From NCBI GenBank assembly GCA_031081715.1, contig JAVHMA010000002.1, positions 62,001-126,000 of the forward strand: a stretch of 64,000 nucleotides of DNA, written 5' to 3'. Below, in pieces: positions 31,753 to 38,809 of this stretch; the stretch's first letter is position 1, and each line of letters starts with the position of its first letter. The translations under genes were made by a program, and so were the position numbers. Source of the stretch: Armatimonadota bacterium (lineage in GTDB: Bacteria > Sysuimicrobiota > Sysuimicrobiia > Sysuimicrobiales > Humicultoraceae). The notes beneath the pieces are model-generated. The model saw only the letters and a list, made by a program, of their open reading frames with translations, did no database searches and had not been told where the DNA came from.

Positions 31753-33260
<1,508 letters not shown>

Positions 33261-33274
33261 TGACCTGTCGGCGC

Positions 33275-34069
33275 CTACGCCGGTACCTCGGACGGCGGCT
33301 CGGGTGGCGGCCCGGCGGGAGGCTCGGCGGCCTGCGGCGCACGGCGCTGTAGCCGGACCAGCACGACGGCGCACACCAGCACCGCCACCCCGCTCGCCAC
33401 CTGCCCGGCGGTCAGCGGCCCCAGCACCGCCGGCGCGTCCACGAAGACGTCCACCGCGAACCGCGCCACCGACTGCAGCAGCACGGCCAGCGCCAACAGC
33501 GTGCCCGGTGGGAGATCGCGGTGGCGCTGTGCCCGCAGGATCGCCAGGATGCCCGCGGCGGCCGCGAGCAGGTAGAGCGGCGCCGGGTGCCGGCGCTCGA
33601 GGAACAGCTCCATTGCCCAGGGCACGCCCGTGGGGCGGCCGACGAAGAGCCCGTGGAGCAACGCGCCGATCATCGCCACCGCGTAGCCGGCGATCAGCGC
33701 GGGCGCGTAGGCGTCGGCGAGCGCACCGAAGGCGACCCGCCAGCGCTGCGCGAACGCCCACGCCAGCCAGAGCCCCCCGAGCAGCGCCCCGTAGTAGGTG
33801 AGCCCGCCGTCGCGCCAGAGCGTGAGCATGCGCGCCGGGTCTGTGAGGAACGCCTCGGGGTTCGCCACGATGAACCCGAGCCGGCCCGCGACGATGCCCG
33901 CGATGATCAGGTAGAGCGAGAGGTCGAGCACCTGGTTGGGGTCCAGGTCGAGCCGCTCGCGCGCGGTGCGGCGGGCGATGGTAATGCCGGCGAAGAACCC
34001 GAGCAGGAGGAAGACACCGAACGACGAGACCGGGATTACGCCGAAGAGGTCGAACAGCACCGGCCGCAC
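33275..34069 (-). CDS. Lgt-like membrane protein with degenerate active site
   Basis: The 264-residue, seven-helix protein aligns end to end with prolipoprotein diacylglyceryl transferase: GVFLLLGFFAGITIARR, AGRLGFIV, WRDGGLTYYGALLGG, GRPTGVPWAME, RHPAPLYLL, and a final ARFAVDVF with LTAGQVASG. Most residues known to be needed in E. coli Lgt are replaced: Y26 by F17, H103 by Y93, R143 by M133, N146 by A136, E151 by L141 and Y235 by Q199. Only G154 (G144) and R239 (R203) persist, with E243 as D207. It may be inactive in diacylglyceryl transfer or do something else. GTG 34069 has GGAGGTGAT upstream. The C-terminal 25 residues are Pro/Glu-rich. Confidence 0.8.
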   Translation of the reverse strand: MRPVLFDLFGVIPVSSFGVFLLLGFFAGITIARRTARERLDLDPNQVLDLSLYLIIAGIVAGRLGFIVANPEAFLTDPARMLTLWRDGGLTYYGALLGGLWLAWAFAQRWRVAFGALADAYAPALIAGYAVAMIGALLHGLFVGRPTGVPWAMELFLERRHPAPLYLLAAAAGILAILRAQRHRDLPPGTLLALAVLLQSVARFAVDVFVDAPAVLGPLTAGQVASGVAVLVCAVVLVRLQRRAPQAAEPPAGPPPEPPSEVPA

Positions 34070-34073
34070 GCCA

Positions 34074-34544
34074 TCACCTCCGAGAATCCGCGCGGCGCTC
34101 CTCGCGTGCGAGCGCGACGACCAGCGCACCCGCCCCGACGACGATGGCCGCGTCCGCCGCGTTGAAGACAGGCCAGACGTGCAGGTCCAGGTAGTCGATC
34201 ACGTACCCGAGCCGGAGACGGTCGAGCAGGTTCGCCGCCGCGCCGCCGACCATCAGGGCGATACCGGTCGCCCAGACGCGCGTGCCGGGTCGGCCGGACC
34301 TGTTGTAGAGAAGGGCGGCGAACAGGCTCAAGGCGGCGAGCACGGCGACGACCGGCGGCAACCCGGGCAGCAAACCGAACGCGACGCCGGTGTTGGCGAC
34401 CGGCGAGAGACTGAGCACGCCGGGCAGGATCGGCCGGGTAGTCCCCATGGGCACCCAGGCGAGCACGGCCGCCTTCGCAGCCTGATCGGCCACGAACACC
34501 GCCGCGGCGCCGGCCAGCACGCGCCACCCGCGCGTCGCCGGCAC
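34074..34544 (-). CDS. lspA: Lipoprotein signal peptidase (signal peptidase II)
   Basis: The 156-residue, four-helix membrane aspartyl protease has FVADQAAKAAVLA, NTGVAFGLLPG, and the two catalytic aspartates in AAANLLDRLRLGYVIDYLDL and VFNAADAAIVVGA, so the active site is intact. LspA cleaves the signal peptide of diacylglycerylated prolipoproteins. GTG 34544 (VPATRGWRVLAG) gives the usual family length. It follows ylyA in the ileS-ylyA-lspA order and sits directly before a degenerate Lgt homologue. A working Lgt must therefore be encoded elsewhere if this LspA has substrates. Confidence 0.95.
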   Translation of the reverse strand: MPATRGWRVLAGAAAVFVADQAAKAAVLAWVPMGTTRPILPGVLSLSPVANTGVAFGLLPGLPPVVAVLAALSLFAALLYNRSGRPGTRVWATGIALMVGGAAANLLDRLRLGYVIDYLDLHVWPVFNAADAAIVVGAGALVVALAREERRADSRR

Positions 34545-34561
34545 TTGCGGGGACGGCGCGG

Positions 34562-35155
34562 CTATCGGGGGATCGCCTGCTCTTCCCGCGCCTTGCAGTC
34601 GATGCACAGCCGCGCGTAGGGCAGCGCCCGCAGCCGCTCCGGGTGGATCGGCGATCCGCACGCCTCGCAGATGCCGAAAGTCCCCTGGTCGATGCGCTCC
34701 AGCGCCTCCTCGACCTGCTGCAACAGGTCCTGGACGCTGTTTTCGATGGCGATGCCCTTCTCGCGCTCGAACGTGTCGCTCGCGACGTCCGCCAGGTCCT
34801 CGTCGTAGCCGCCACTCGCGTCCACGCTGACCTGCTCCACCTCGGGCAGGTGCTCCTCCATCGCCTCCAGCTCGGCGCTCAGCCGGTCACGCTCGGCCTC
34901 GAGCTGGCGGCGGAACTCCTCGAGCTCACGCTTGGTCAGCGGCCGCGTCTTCACCGCCGGCCGGGCGGGCGCCGCGGGCCTCAGCCGGCTCTTGAGCGCC
35001 CGGCCGGGCCGGGCCGGCCGGGCCGGGCCTGACCGTGGCCGCGCCGCTTTGCGGGCGCTGGGCCGGGCCGCCCCGGTTCGGGCCTTCCTGGTCGCCGCCG
35101 GGCGAGCCGACCCACCTCGGGCCTTTCCCGACCGTCCGGCAGACCTGCTGGGCAT
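34562..35155 (-). CDS. TraR/DksA-type zinc-finger protein (YlyA-like) with long basic N-terminal tail
   Basis: The 197-residue protein has three parts. Residues 1-72 are a low-complexity tail of Arg, Ala, Pro, Lys and Gly (ARPARPGRAL style). About 75-150 is the acidic helical hairpin (ELEEFRRQLEAERDRLSAEL, YDEDLADVASDTFEREK). The C-terminus is a C4 zinc finger, C163-x2-C166 and C184-x2-C187 (GICEACGSPI...RLCIDCK). YlyA/DksA-like proteins enter the RNA polymerase secondary channel; the tail looks nucleic-acid binding. Its position between ileS and lspA matches B. subtilis ylyA. ATG 35155 has GGAGGGG 9 bases upstream; ATG 35164 is also in frame. Confidence 0.9.
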   Translation of the reverse strand: MPSRSAGRSGKARGGSARPAATRKARTGAARPSARKAARPRSGPARPARPGRALKSRLRPAAPARPAVKTRPLTKRELEEFRRQLEAERDRLSAELEAMEEHLPEVEQVSVDASGGYDEDLADVASDTFEREKGIAIENSVQDLLQQVEEALERIDQGTFGICEACGSPIHPERLRALPYARLCIDCKAREEQAIPR

Positions 35156-35201
35156 GACCCTCATCCCCTCCACACACGCGTTCGGTCGAAAAGCCGCCCC
35201 T

Positions 35202-35230
35202 ATCTTACTCGTCGCCCCTACCGCTGACAA
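35202..35230 (-). promoter_or_regulatory. Candidate sigma-A promoter for ylyA-lspA-lgt-rluD-pyrR
   Basis: On the minus strand TTGTCA (35225-35230) and TAAGAT (35202-35207) are spaced by exactly 17 bp, in the short gap between the ileS stop and ylyA. Each hexamer matches 5 of 6 and 4-5 of 6 consensus bases. The predicted start near 35195 gives a leader of about 40 bases. Confidence 0.6.
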
Positions 35231-35252
35231 GCCTGCGAGCCGGGATCGAGGT

Positions 35253-38200
35253 TTAGGTGCCCGCGCGCTCCAGGGCGACACGCACGACCGTGCCGTCCAG
35301 GTTCACCTCCCGGCCGTCGGCCGGGGCGGCCGTCCCCACCACGACCCGGACGGCGAGCGTCTCGGACAGGATGTAGTCTCCATGCGCCGCCAGGAGCGCC
35401 TCGAGCCCGGCGTCGCCGGCCAGGTGGAGGGCGATCCGATCGCTGACCTCCAGACCCCGGTCCTTCCGGAGCTGCTGGATGTGGTGAACCAGCTCGCGCG
35501 CCTGGCCCTCGCGCCGCAGCGATTCGTCGATCGTCGTTTCCAGCACCACCACGTGGCCCCCGCTGCTCTCCGCTGCGTAGCCCGGGGCGGTCCGCAGCCG
35601 CACCTCGACGTCGTCGGGCTCGAGCGCGAGCGTCTCCCCGCCCACCCGCACCGCGAGCGGGCCGCCGGCGGCGATGGCCTCCGCGGTCTGGCGGGCGGGG
35701 AGTTGACGGATCGCGGCCGCCACGGCCTGCACGCGCGCACCGTACTTCGGCCCCAGCCGGTCGAAACGCGGCCTGACCTCGTAGGTCACGACCTCGCCGA
35801 TCTCGTCCGCGAACTCGACCCGCTTGACGTTCAACTCGTCCGCCAGCAGGTCCACGAGCTCAGGCTCCTCTCGCAGCCGCCGGTCGGTGGTCGCCACGAG
35901 CACCGCGGGAAGCGGCTGCCGCACCCGCACCCGCGCCGCGCCGCGCGCCGCCCGGCCGAGCGCCACCAGCGCGCGCACCGCGTCCATGCGCGCCTCGAGC
36001 TCCGGGTCGCGGCGGGCCGGGTCGGGCTCGGGGTACGTGCAGAGATGTACGCTCTCCGGTGCGTCGGGCTCGACCGGCCGCACCAGGTTCTGGTAGATCG
36101 CCTCGGCCATGAAGGGCACGAAGGGCGCGAGCGCGGTCGCCAGTGTGCGCAGCACATGATAGAGCGTGTAGTACGCGGCGCGCTTGTCCGCGTCGTCCCC
36201 GCTCCTCCAGAACCGCCGGCGGCTGCGGCGGACGTACCAGGTGGACAGCTCGTCCACGAACGCCTCCGCGGGCCGCGCGGCGCCAGCGATGTCGTAGTCG
36301 TCGAGACGCTCGCGCATGGTCGCCACCAAGCCACAGGCGCGCGAGAGAATCCAGCGGTCCAGCAGCCGCAGCGGCGGCGCCTCGGCGGCCAGCCGGGCGA
36401 AGTCGAGCGCCTCCAGCGACGCGTAGGTGACGAAGAACGCGTAGACGTTCCACCACGGCAGCACGAACCGGCGTCGGACGTCGTCGGCCGGCCCGTAGCC
36501 GAAGTTCACGTTCTGCGCCGGGTTCTGCGTCGCATACAACCAGCGCACCACGTCGGCGCCGATGCGCTCGGCCGCCTCCTCGAACTCGATCGCGTTGCCC
36601 CACGACTTGTGCATCTCCCGGCCCCGCTCGTCCCGGACCATGGCATGGCCGAGGCAGACCTCGAAGGGCGGCCGGTTCTCCAGCACGGTGCTCATCACCA
36701 GCAGCGCGTAGAACCAGTTCCGGTACTGCCCGGGAAACGCCTCGGTAATGAAGTGGGCGGGGAACCAGTCGCGCCAGTACCGGCGGTCCTCCAGGTAGGA
36801 TACCCCGCCGGTCGCCGGGTCGAGCAGGGTGGAGAACGGCACGATCCCAGCGTCCAGCCAGGGGTTGCCCACGTCGCTGATCCGTGGCACCGAGGCGCCG
36901 CAGGCGCGGCAGCGGATCGTCACCGCGTCGATCCACGGCCGGTGGGGCGAGTGGCCCTCGAACTGCTCCCAGCCCGCCACGGCGCGCGCGCGCAGCTCGT
37001 CCTTCGACCCGATCACCTCGAACGCCCCGCAGGACGCGCACTCGTAGATGGGCAGGGCGAGGCCGTAGTAGCGCTTCTTGCTGATCATCCAGTCGTGCAT
37101 GTTGCGCAGCCAGTCGAGCTCGCGCTCCAGCCCGAACGCGGGGATCCACCGGATCTGCCGGGTCACGGCCATCATGGCCTCGCGCACCGGGTCCATCGCG
37201 ATGAACCACTCGTCCACCAGGCGGAAGATCAGCTCGCTCCCGCAGCGCCAGCAGACCGGGTAGCGGTGGGTGTAGGGGTCGGCGCGGTAGAGCAGCCCGC
37301 GCCGCCGCAGGTCATCCGCGACCGGCCCCGCCACCTCGTAGACCATGCGTCCCGCCAGCCAGCCGTAACCGTCCACGAAGACACCGAACTCGTCCAGCGG
37401 GGCGAGCACCGGCAGCCCGTGGACCCTGCCAAGCCCGAAGTCCTCGGCGCCGCAGCCGGGCGCGATGTGCACGATGCCCGTGCCCTCGGCGGCGCTCACC
37501 TCGTCCCACGGGATGACCCGGTGCTCGATGCCCTGCTGCACCGGCAGGTCGTCGAACGGGCCGCGATAGCGCCGGCCCACGAGCGCCGCACCGGGCAGGG
37601 TCTCCAGCACGCGGTAGGGGCCGGCCAGCACGCCCAGCGCGCCGGTGGCCAGGTAGAACTCCTCGTCGCCCTGGCGGACGCGCGCGTAGGCCAGCGCCGG
37701 GTGCACGGCGGCGGCCACGTTGCTCGTCAGCGTCCAGGGTGTGGTCGTCCACACCAGGAGCGCGCGCCCGGGCTCCTCCAGCAGCGGCAGGCGCACGACC
37801 AGGCCGGGGTGGGTGATCTCGCGGTAGCCCTCGGTGACGATCTCGTGCTCGGAGATGCCGGTACTGCAGCGCGGGCACCACGGCATGACGTCGTGGCCCT
37901 TGTAGATCATCCCGCGTTCCCAGCACCGCTTCAGGAAGTGCCAGATCGTGTAGTTGTTCTCGTCGGCCAGCGTGTGGTAGGAACGGTCCCAGTCCATCCA
38001 GTAGCCCAGACGCTGGGACTGCTGCGTGATGATGTCCGCGAACCGCATCACGCGCGCCTTGCACAGCTCGACGAACGGGGCGACGCCGTAGGTCTCGATG
38101 TCCCGCTTGCTCTTGAAGCCGAGCTCCTTCTCGACCTCGACCTCGACCCACAACCCCTGCCCGTCGAAGCCGTTCTGATAGCGCTGCCGGTAGCCGCGCA

Positions 38201-38429
38201 TCGTCTTGTAGCGCTGTACCAGGTCCTTGTAGGTCCGGCCCCACGCGTGGTGAATCCCCATCGGGTTGTTGGCCGTGATCGGGCCGTCGAGGAAGGAGAA
38301 CCGCTGCGCGGCGGTCTCGTTGCGGCGGAGATAGCGCGCGACGATCTGCTGCTCGCGCCACCAAGCGAGAATCTCGCGCTCGAGCCCGGGGAAATCCACC
38401 TTCGCGGGCAGCGGCGCAAAGCGGGTCAT
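35253..38429 (-). CDS. ileS: Isoleucyl-tRNA synthetase with altered HIGH and KMSKS motifs
   Basis: The 1058-residue class I synthetase has an N-terminal catalytic segment starting SFLDGPITANNPMGIHHAWG. The CP1 editing domain includes VWTTTPWTLTSN. The second catalytic part has NPWLDAG and RGREMHKSWGNAIEFEEAAERIGAD. The anticodon domain is helical with a long C-terminal extension. The length and VEVEVEKELGFKSK segment fit the long (IleS2-like) group. HIGH reads GIHH (about residue 58) and KMSKS reads EMHKS (about 608). The second halves are kept while the first His and first Lys are lost. Cys pairs (CPRC, CWRC, CRAC) suggest zinc knuckles. ATG 38429 follows GGGAGGA. A T-box leader lies upstream. 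Confidence 0.94.
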   Translation of the reverse strand: MTRFAPLPAKVDFPGLEREILAWWREQQIVARYLRRNETAAQRFSFLDGPITANNPMGIHHAWGRTYKDLVQRYKTMRGYRQRYQNGFDGQGLWVEVEVEKELGFKSKRDIETYGVAPFVELCKARVMRFADIITQQSQRLGYWMDWDRSYHTLADENNYTIWHFLKRCWERGMIYKGHDVMPWCPRCSTGISEHEIVTEGYREITHPGLVVRLPLLEEPGRALLVWTTTPWTLTSNVAAAVHPALAYARVRQGDEEFYLATGALGVLAGPYRVLETLPGAALVGRRYRGPFDDLPVQQGIEHRVIPWDEVSAAEGTGIVHIAPGCGAEDFGLGRVHGLPVLAPLDEFGVFVDGYGWLAGRMVYEVAGPVADDLRRRGLLYRADPYTHRYPVCWRCGSELIFRLVDEWFIAMDPVREAMMAVTRQIRWIPAFGLERELDWLRNMHDWMISKKRYYGLALPIYECASCGAFEVIGSKDELRARAVAGWEQFEGHSPHRPWIDAVTIRCRACGASVPRISDVGNPWLDAGIVPFSTLLDPATGGVSYLEDRRYWRDWFPAHFITEAFPGQYRNWFYALLVMSTVLENRPPFEVCLGHAMVRDERGREMHKSWGNAIEFEEAAERIGADVVRWLYATQNPAQNVNFGYGPADDVRRRFVLPWWNVYAFFVTYASLEALDFARLAAEAPPLRLLDRWILSRACGLVATMRERLDDYDIAGAARPAEAFVDELSTWYVRRSRRRFWRSGDDADKRAAYYTLYHVLRTLATALAPFVPFMAEAIYQNLVRPVEPDAPESVHLCTYPEPDPARRDPELEARMDAVRALVALGRAARGAARVRVRQPLPAVLVATTDRRLREEPELVDLLADELNVKRVEFADEIGEVVTYEVRPRFDRLGPKYGARVQAVAAAIRQLPARQTAEAIAAGGPLAVRVGGETLALEPDDVEVRLRTAPGYAAESSGGHVVVLETTIDESLRREGQARELVHHIQQLRKDRGLEVSDRIALHLAGDAGLEALLAAHGDYILSETLAVRVVVGTAAPADGREVNLDGTVVRVALERAGT

Positions 38430-38463
38430 GCCGACTGTCCTCCCTCGACCGTCGTGGTGCGCG

Positions 38464-38708
38464 AACGCGGGCAGCGCCCGCCCCCAAGGGACGGGCGCTG
38501 CCCGTGGTTCCACCCTCGTTCCGGCCGGGTGACCGCGGCCGGCACTCGGCTCCCGATGACGGGGGAGCGTCCCGGCGGCGCCTGGCAAGCGTTCCTGCTC
38601 GGGCCGCGGCTCGGGGGTGATGGGAAACCGCTCGCGCCCGCCGGGCTCGCACCGCCCTCCCGGCTCGCTTGCGGCCGCGCACGGCTCCGTCCCCGTCCTC
38701 GCCAGTTC
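38464..38708 (-). promoter_or_regulatory. T-box riboswitch leader of ileS
   Basis: Read on the minus strand, 38501-38516 is AGGGTGGAACCACGGG, the T-box core that pairs with the tRNA acceptor end. It overlaps a 13-bp perfect hairpin (38468-38504, arms CGGGCAGCGCCCG and CGGGCGCTGCCCG) carrying the family-typical CGTCCC. Upstream, an ATC isoleucine specifier candidate (38619-38621) sits in a loop closed by GCGG/CCGC and CGGGC/GCCCG, resembling the short Stem I of actinobacterial ileS T-boxes. There is no U run after the hairpin, and a ribosome-binding site follows about 30 bases later, so termination versus translational control is open. The core has TGGA where an A73 tRNA-Ile would predict TGGT. 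Confidence 0.8.
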
Positions 38709-38714
38709 CGGCGT

Positions 38715-38744
38715 AGTGTACCACGGCGGCGCGCGCAGCGTCCA
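38715..38744 (-). promoter_or_regulatory. Candidate promoter of the ileS T-box leader
   Basis: TGGACG (38739-38744) and TACACT (38715-38720) lie 18 bp apart on the minus strand, with four matches each to consensus. The start would be near 38708, just before the first leader hairpin (GCC-GGAACT-GGC). The remaining gene-free bases 38745-38809 show nothing I can name. Confidence 0.4.
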
Positions 38745-38809
38745 GCAGGGACGCGCGGGCGTGGCCCGAACCCTCTCCACAGGCCCCATCGCGGCGAACC
38801 GGAACGCTC

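Follow-up and report, generated by a model that had tools for sequence, protein, structure and literature searches.

The window, a stretch of 64,000 nucleotides from the genome of an Armatimonadota bacterium (contig JAVHMA010000002.1, positions 62,001 to 126,000 of the forward strand), carries on its minus strand the gene lgtP (33275..34069), which encodes a degenerate paralogue of the prolipoprotein diacylglyceryl transferase Lgt. Directly upstream lies lspA (34074..34661, minus strand), the gene for signal peptidase II, and along this strand the genes follow in the order ileS, dksA/traR-type, lspA, lgtP, rluD-type and pyrR-like. Translated from the GTG at 34069, 4 nt past the lspA stop, LgtP comprises 264 amino acids; use of an earlier GTG at 34129 would result in an overlap with lspA of 56 nt. 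The lspA open reading frame (ORF), taken from its first GTG, scores 108 bits against PF01252 and passes TIGR00077 (80.3 against a cut-off of 73.95), with the domain beginning near residue 52. Its product displays both catalytic motifs, NLLDR and FNAAD, in agreement with the sequence-only reading, an earlier annotation of this DNA that had placed an Lgt homologue with most catalytic residues missing next to an LspA with both aspartates. The finding is real and broader than that reading had it, as LgtP represents a degenerate Lgt paralogue which is conserved throughout its phylum and locked to lspA.

Over its entire length, LgtP resembles Lgt (PF01790; E. coli structures 5AZB and 5AZC). The match to PF01790 reaches 130.3 bits (gathering score 24.9) and covers positions 1-239 of the 240 in the model, and all 27 LgtP members of alignment A1, which holds 27 of the 40 LgtP copies of the phylum, match this profile at E 0.001. 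An AlphaFold2 model of LgtP (predicted local distance difference test score 89.8, predicted template modelling score 0.85) shows seven predicted helices, two arms and a short head hairpin. The HP..LY motif (H161 P162, Y166) is present as well, so that the persistence of the seven-helix fold and of this motif, both asserted previously, is confirmed. Superposition of the model on 5AZB with VIA-align gave a Z-score of 20.4 and a root-mean-square deviation of 3.8 Å for 238 residues; the next chain reached a Z-score of 7.2, and rows under 8 were disregarded as common helical arrangements. In a Foldseek search 5AZB (TM-score 0.73, E 3.2e-10) was the sole match at E 0.001 or better. Against the equivalog profile TIGR00544 (cut-off 118.9), LgtP scores 65.4 and none of three further LgtP copies passes, whereas the canonical Lgt of the same genome lies narrowly over the cut-off with 121.9; the comparison is only a fair control, since one of two canonical copies tested (L055, 105.7) also falls below.

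In contrast to this retained architecture, LgtP has lost Y26, R143, N146, E151, E202 and R246 of Lgt and has acquired a one-residue insertion with an invariant aspartate, Asp87. The E. coli reference lgt was taken from NC_000913.3, and residue numbers of the 103 type refer to E. coli Lgt. In the alignment, F17, Y93, M133, A136, L141 and Q199 of the window LgtP stand opposite Y26, H103, R143, N146, E151 and Y235, exactly as the sequence-only reading had placed these six substitutions; in addition, the window protein carries N149H, E202L and R246V. The substitutions differ in weight. According to PMC13251419, alanine at Y26, H103, R143, N146, G154 or R239 abolishes the function of E. coli Lgt, E151A still complements, and H103 is naturally replaced by tyrosine or tryptophan in Firmicutes and Actinobacteria, with tyrosine in the Firmicute Lgts. 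In the phylum, moreover, none of the 38 canonical-type copies has tyrosine at position 235; T, S, M, L or V stands there instead. H103Y and the changes at E151 and Y235 are therefore weak evidence for a loss of catalysis, and the claimed loss holds for Y26, R143 and N146, to which E202 (L in 40 of 40 copies) and R246 (V, M, L or I in 40 of 40), both overlooked before, have to be added. Of the six residues required in E. coli, LgtP thus keeps G154 and R239, has lost three (Y26F, R143M, N146A) and shows in H103Y a variant that occurs naturally elsewhere.

PMC7240156 describes R143 and E151 as predicted ligands of phosphatidylglycerol (PG) and R143-R239-E243-R246 as a catalytic hydrogen-bond network, and in PMC8048626 a first PG site is formed by Y26 and arm-2 and a second by R143 and R239. 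Accordingly, key residues of both PG sites are gone from LgtP, with R239 and E/D243 kept. H196, Y201, D129 and R73 are likewise retained, and an invariant aspartate and constant tyrosines are gained.

To place LgtP within its phylum, 43 genomes of Candidatus Sysuimicrobiota (CSP1-3, ANGP1) were searched with an LgtP profile. LgtP is present in 40 of them at 299-392 bits, and every other Lgt of the phylum stays at or below 149 bits. Residues were compared between 40 LgtP, 38 canonical-type copies and the extra copy L048, with the Lgts of E. coli, nine from Cyanobacteria, eight that are plasmid-borne and two from UBA8530 as outside sequences. At position 143, LgtP shows M in 35, V in 2, A in 2 and T in 1, at 146 A in 28, T in 10, G in 1 and S in 1, and at 151 L in 38, M in 1 and V in 1, while the canonical copies have R, N and E, respectively, in 38 of 38. 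E202 is replaced by L throughout (canonical: E 37, D 1), R246 by V in 25, M in 12, L in 2 and I in 1 (canonical: R 37, gap 1), and at position 26 there are 35 F, 3 Y, 1 L and 1 H (canonical: Y 37, H 1). Position 103 is Y in 39 copies and S in one, and position 149 is variable (H/Y/A/G/S/T). Nineteen columns that are at least 90% conserved are identical in both groups, among them R73, G99, G104, D129, G145, G154, H196, P197, Y201 and R239, and seven columns of the same conservation switch residue between LgtP and the canonical copies; R239 and D/E243 are found in 40 of 40 LgtP. Just before the H103 position, the one-residue insertion gives rise to a W-x-D-x-G-L motif in all 40 copies. The inserted column holds Asp in 40 of 40 LgtP and a gap in 58 of 58 other Lgts (38 canonical and 20 outside, L048 excluded). 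With the gap shifted one column earlier, the inserted Asp would instead stand opposite D97 of E. coli, where residues vary; the existence of an insertion is therefore certain, whereas its precise column is left uncertain. Since it recurs in 40 orthologues, the residue pattern is not due to chance, and LgtP is a distinct orthologous family of the phylum.

At all 40 loci, lspA lies directly upstream of lgtP on the same strand and is the only lspA of the genome. In 14 of them there is a 4-nt overlap between a start codon and the lspA stop. Same-strand neighbours further include dksA (40/40), the downstream rluD (38/40), pyrR (33/40) and ileS (34/40), the rest being off the contig or unmatched. 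In the window, the gene for the dksA/traR-type C4 zinc finger protein (34562..35281, minus strand; PF01258 and yteA/DksA NCBIfam matches) overlaps, as the ORF is listed, the start of the lspA ORF. The ileS ORF (35253..38789, minus strand, as listed) was named from its sequence, with no family scan. The ORF of the rluD-type pseudouridine synthase is listed at 32298..33761 (minus strand) and exceeds the TIGR00005 cut-off with 290.5 bits; its domain starts at about residue 179, which places the real start near 33250. Downstream follows a phosphoribosyltransferase gene (31753..32301, minus strand), likewise named without a family scan, which we take to be pyrR-like from a motif in its sequence. 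Upstream of the dksA-lspA-lgtP run, a sigma-70-like promoter match lies at 35202..35230 (minus strand; 9 of 12 positions), the one match between 31700 and 36000 against 0.1 expected; it is a consensus match only. No terminator-like sites were found in the same interval. A lipobox pattern scan of the window returned one weak candidate, which was not used.

LgtP is missing from three genomes. One of these, G007, is 89% complete and lspA was not found in it either. The other two, G018 and G021, belong to one genus, are 98-99% complete and show lspA followed directly by rluD, which represents a clean loss.

In a phylogenetic tree, the 40 LgtP copies form one clade (support 93), as do the 38 canonical copies (support 100). 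One plasmid-borne Lgt from Meiothermus groups with the canonical copies (88), and LgtP, canonical copies and the Meiothermus sequence are held together at 100. Because this plasmid Lgt groups with the canonical side, LgtP would have arisen at or before the base of the phylum. The mean crown-to-tip length within the phylum is 0.90 for LgtP versus 1.11 for the canonical copies, indicating that LgtP evolves no faster. Ratios of nonsynonymous to synonymous substitution (dN/dS) were calculated for 38 LgtP and 37 canonical copies. For close pairs (dS < 0.5), they range from 0.04 to 0.17 in eight of nine LgtP pairs and from 0.14 to 0.24 in seven canonical pairs. In close pairs LgtP is under purifying selection, and both chance and decay in a single genome were accordingly rejected, the pattern being phylum-wide.

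Patterns built on the LgtP alignment were scanned against 84,980 species genomes and yielded 26 loci, 25 of which correspond to LgtP contigs of Sysuimicrobiota; as the patterns require an exact match, relatives elsewhere that have diverged further may have escaped the scan. The exception, L090, is a fragment with LgtP and rluD that lies at the end of contig DOBT01000256 in the metagenome-assembled genome 'Cyanobacteria bacterium UBA8530' (G043:C20). The contig end has a GC content of 67-69% versus 52-63% further in, the fragment shares 71% identity with a copy from Sysuimicrobiota, and in the LgtP search all other genomes among the 117 of Cyanobacteriota score 158 bits or less. Horizontal spread was therefore rejected for this lone case, which is probably contamination. 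Among plasmid records, one search for LgtP gave no match and another returned ordinary Lgts. Lgt genes as such occur on 93 of 72,556 plasmid records, a few of which are chromosome-sized.

The sequence-only reading had left two ways out, a real Lgt elsewhere in the genome with a new role for the paralogue, or a lineage in which lipoprotein lipidation differs. The source genome (97% complete) does contain a second PF01790 gene on another contig (C6:675-1379, 187 bits), whose product keeps Y26, H103, R143, N146, E151, E202, R239 and R246 and differs at the Y235 position. A genome without a real Lgt was thus rejected. The sole PF01252 match of this genome is the window LspA, and Lnt and Omp85 are present too. 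With canonical Lgt, one LspA, Lnt and Omp85, the genome has the full standard pathway of a cell with an outer membrane, and gene content lends no support to a deviating lipidation. Across the phylum, canonical-type Lgt is found in 38 of 43 genomes, PF01252 has one match per genome in 42 of 43, and Lnt occurs in 38 of 43. The count for canonical-type Lgt includes an odd copy of G007 (L038, C76:177-872) with Y26H, H103F and N149I, from a genome in which neither lspA nor lgtP was found. G016 encodes a third Lgt copy (L048, C98:2511-3206) in which R143 is kept and N146C, E151D and E202S have occurred.

LspA is conserved in its aspartate dyad, which in P. aeruginosa is formed by D124 and D143 (PMC7240156): the first Asp is present in 38 of 42 copies (4 Glu) and the second in 42 of 42. 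Family f7 differs from the rest of the phylum. Here the DQxxK motif, which is important in LspA, is lost in 12 of 12 genomes (L028, L031, L047, L050, L058, L064, L066, L070, L075, L076, L117 and L118), whereas both residues are kept in the 30 others; four of these twelve (L031, L058, L075, L076) have Glu for the first catalytic Asp. In the canonical Lgts of the same family (e.g. L055, L029), P-Y-A-G or P-F-A-G replaces W-D-G-G before the H103 motif.

That the paralogue has a new role is supported by its conservation; the kind of role, LspA partner or lipid-modifying partner, can be suggested from its constant position downstream of the genome's only lspA. The interpretation we favour, in which our confidence is evenly divided, is that LgtP is an ancient Lgt paralogue without diacylglyceryl transfer chemistry that is retained in the membrane as a non-catalytic participant in lipoprotein maturation and may work with LspA or Lgt. 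lgtP would be translated together with LspA, and its product retains the Lgt body, the arms, the glycine hinges, R73, D129, H196, Y201 and the gate pair R239/E243. As aliphatic or aromatic residues stand in for Y26, R143, E151 and R246 of the PG sites, the cavity is predicted to be more hydrophobic and could bind the signal peptide of (diacylglyceryl-)prolipoprotein or a lipid. Such cargo might be delivered from catalytic Lgt to LspA, or LgtP might pair with one of the two. Judged from sequence and gene order, the step between Lgt and LspA is the most likely place of action; loss of transferase activity, physical partnership and hand-over are what we infer. In a bolder form, to which we hold only tentatively, LgtP is a neofunctionalised Lgt that defines the phylum, a second Lgt-fold protein translated with LspA which either guides prolipoproteins into LspA once they are lipidated or attaches a lipid of another kind. 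In f7 it coexists with an LspA lacking DQxxK, hinting at shared work, and a division between LspA and LgtP is conceivable if the f7 LspA erodes while LgtP stays.

Several observations weigh against a non-catalytic partner of LspA. The tie between the two proteins is drawn from a single source, operon neighbourhood, and G018 and G021 keep an ordinary LspA and live without LgtP, which is hence not indispensable to LspA. One close pair, L057-L060, has a dN/dS of 0.43, and over all pairs with a synonymous difference (pS) below 0.6 the median is 0.47 for 509 LgtP and 0.43 for 496 canonical pairs; these distant pairs were not used for the claim of selection since they are near saturation. Furthermore, Y103 (39/40), R239 (40/40) and D/E243 (40/40) are stricter than a mere scaffold needs, and the new constant residues D87, Y53, Y129 and S15 of LgtP would also fit a new activity. 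The main rival is accordingly an active enzyme of altered chemistry, because, in LgtP numbering, Tyr93 (39/40) and Arg203, Asp/Glu207, His161 and the new Asp87, with Tyr166 (each 40/40), are so constant. Such a transferase on the Lgt scaffold would use a lipid donor that needs no phosphate-binding Arg143, such as a glycolipid or a neutral glycerolipid, or else a different acceptor, and its new site would consist of Tyr93, Asp87, Arg203 and Glu/Asp207. Tyrosine at position 103 is found in Firmicute Lgts, and for divergent Lgts without R143 and R239 another acyl substrate or mechanism has been suggested (PMC13251419). However, the charged residues R143, E151, E202 and R246 were lost together in favour of aliphatic ones, with no other constant polar set in their place, and the N149 position is variable, so that we consider this alternative doubtful though worth serious attention. 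We know of no donor lipid for such a reaction in the phylum.

Ordinary Lgt chemistry at a low level, in a redundant or condition-specific second Lgt, would agree with the retained fold and R239; it is unlikely, given that all 40 copies lack R246 and also R143 and N146, two residues without either of which E. coli Lgt does not function (PMC13251419). LgtP could also act on the membrane apart from lipoproteins, for example by binding lipids, and stand behind lspA by inherited operon position only, since the row ileS-dksA-lspA-lgtP-rluD-pyrR consists of housekeeping genes with various functions. It would then be a coincidence that LgtP is homologous to the enzyme preceding LspA in the pathway and is also encoded next to the sole LspA, which makes this reading about equally improbable. 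A decaying relic without function might account for the loss in G018 and G021 but is very hard to reconcile with the low dN/dS of close pairs, with replacement residues constant throughout the phylum and with extracted copies that are open over the whole homologous stretch; among the LgtP matches of the profile search only that of G024 shows a stop, inside a match running to profile position 253.

Compared with known systems, LgtP shares the absence of R143 with a divergent Lgt subgroup that PMC13251419 describes from five other lineages; by that description the subgroup also lacks R239, which LgtP keeps in 40 of 40 copies and which thus sets it apart. MSMEG_5408 of Mycobacterium smegmatis, with Y26H, N146C and a presumed low activity (same source), likewise accompanies a major Lgt as a second copy with alterations, among them a changed Y26. 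In contrast to it, LgtP has lost R143, E151, E202 and R246 as well, and the extra copy L048 of G016 (R143 kept, N146C, E151D) is closer to the MSMEG_5408 type than LgtP is. A precedent for division of labour is provided by AliA and AliB of Haloferax volcanii, two paralogues with distinct, non-redundant roles that are both needed for lipoprotein lipidation (PMC12186497); these are archaeal, unlike LgtP, and not homologous to bacterial proteins (PMC13251419). In the literature covered, which leaves out bioRxiv and most subscription journals, no account of an Lgt pseudoenzyme or of Sysuimicrobiota lipoproteins was found, and a word search of PMC11604079 gave none either.

Annotation based on PF01790 labels genes of the lgtP type 'lgt', which calls for caution. 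Both Lgt and LspA serve as targets for antibiotics, and Lgt is regarded as a single enzyme with fixed essential residues. If the favoured interpretation of LgtP as a non-catalytic component is true, a conserved Lgt-fold protein without these residues, encoded behind lspA throughout a phylum, would count as a pseudoenzyme in lipoprotein maturation. LgtP would then offer a natural experiment on the role of the Lgt scaffold apart from catalysis and on the passage of prolipoproteins from Lgt to LspA.
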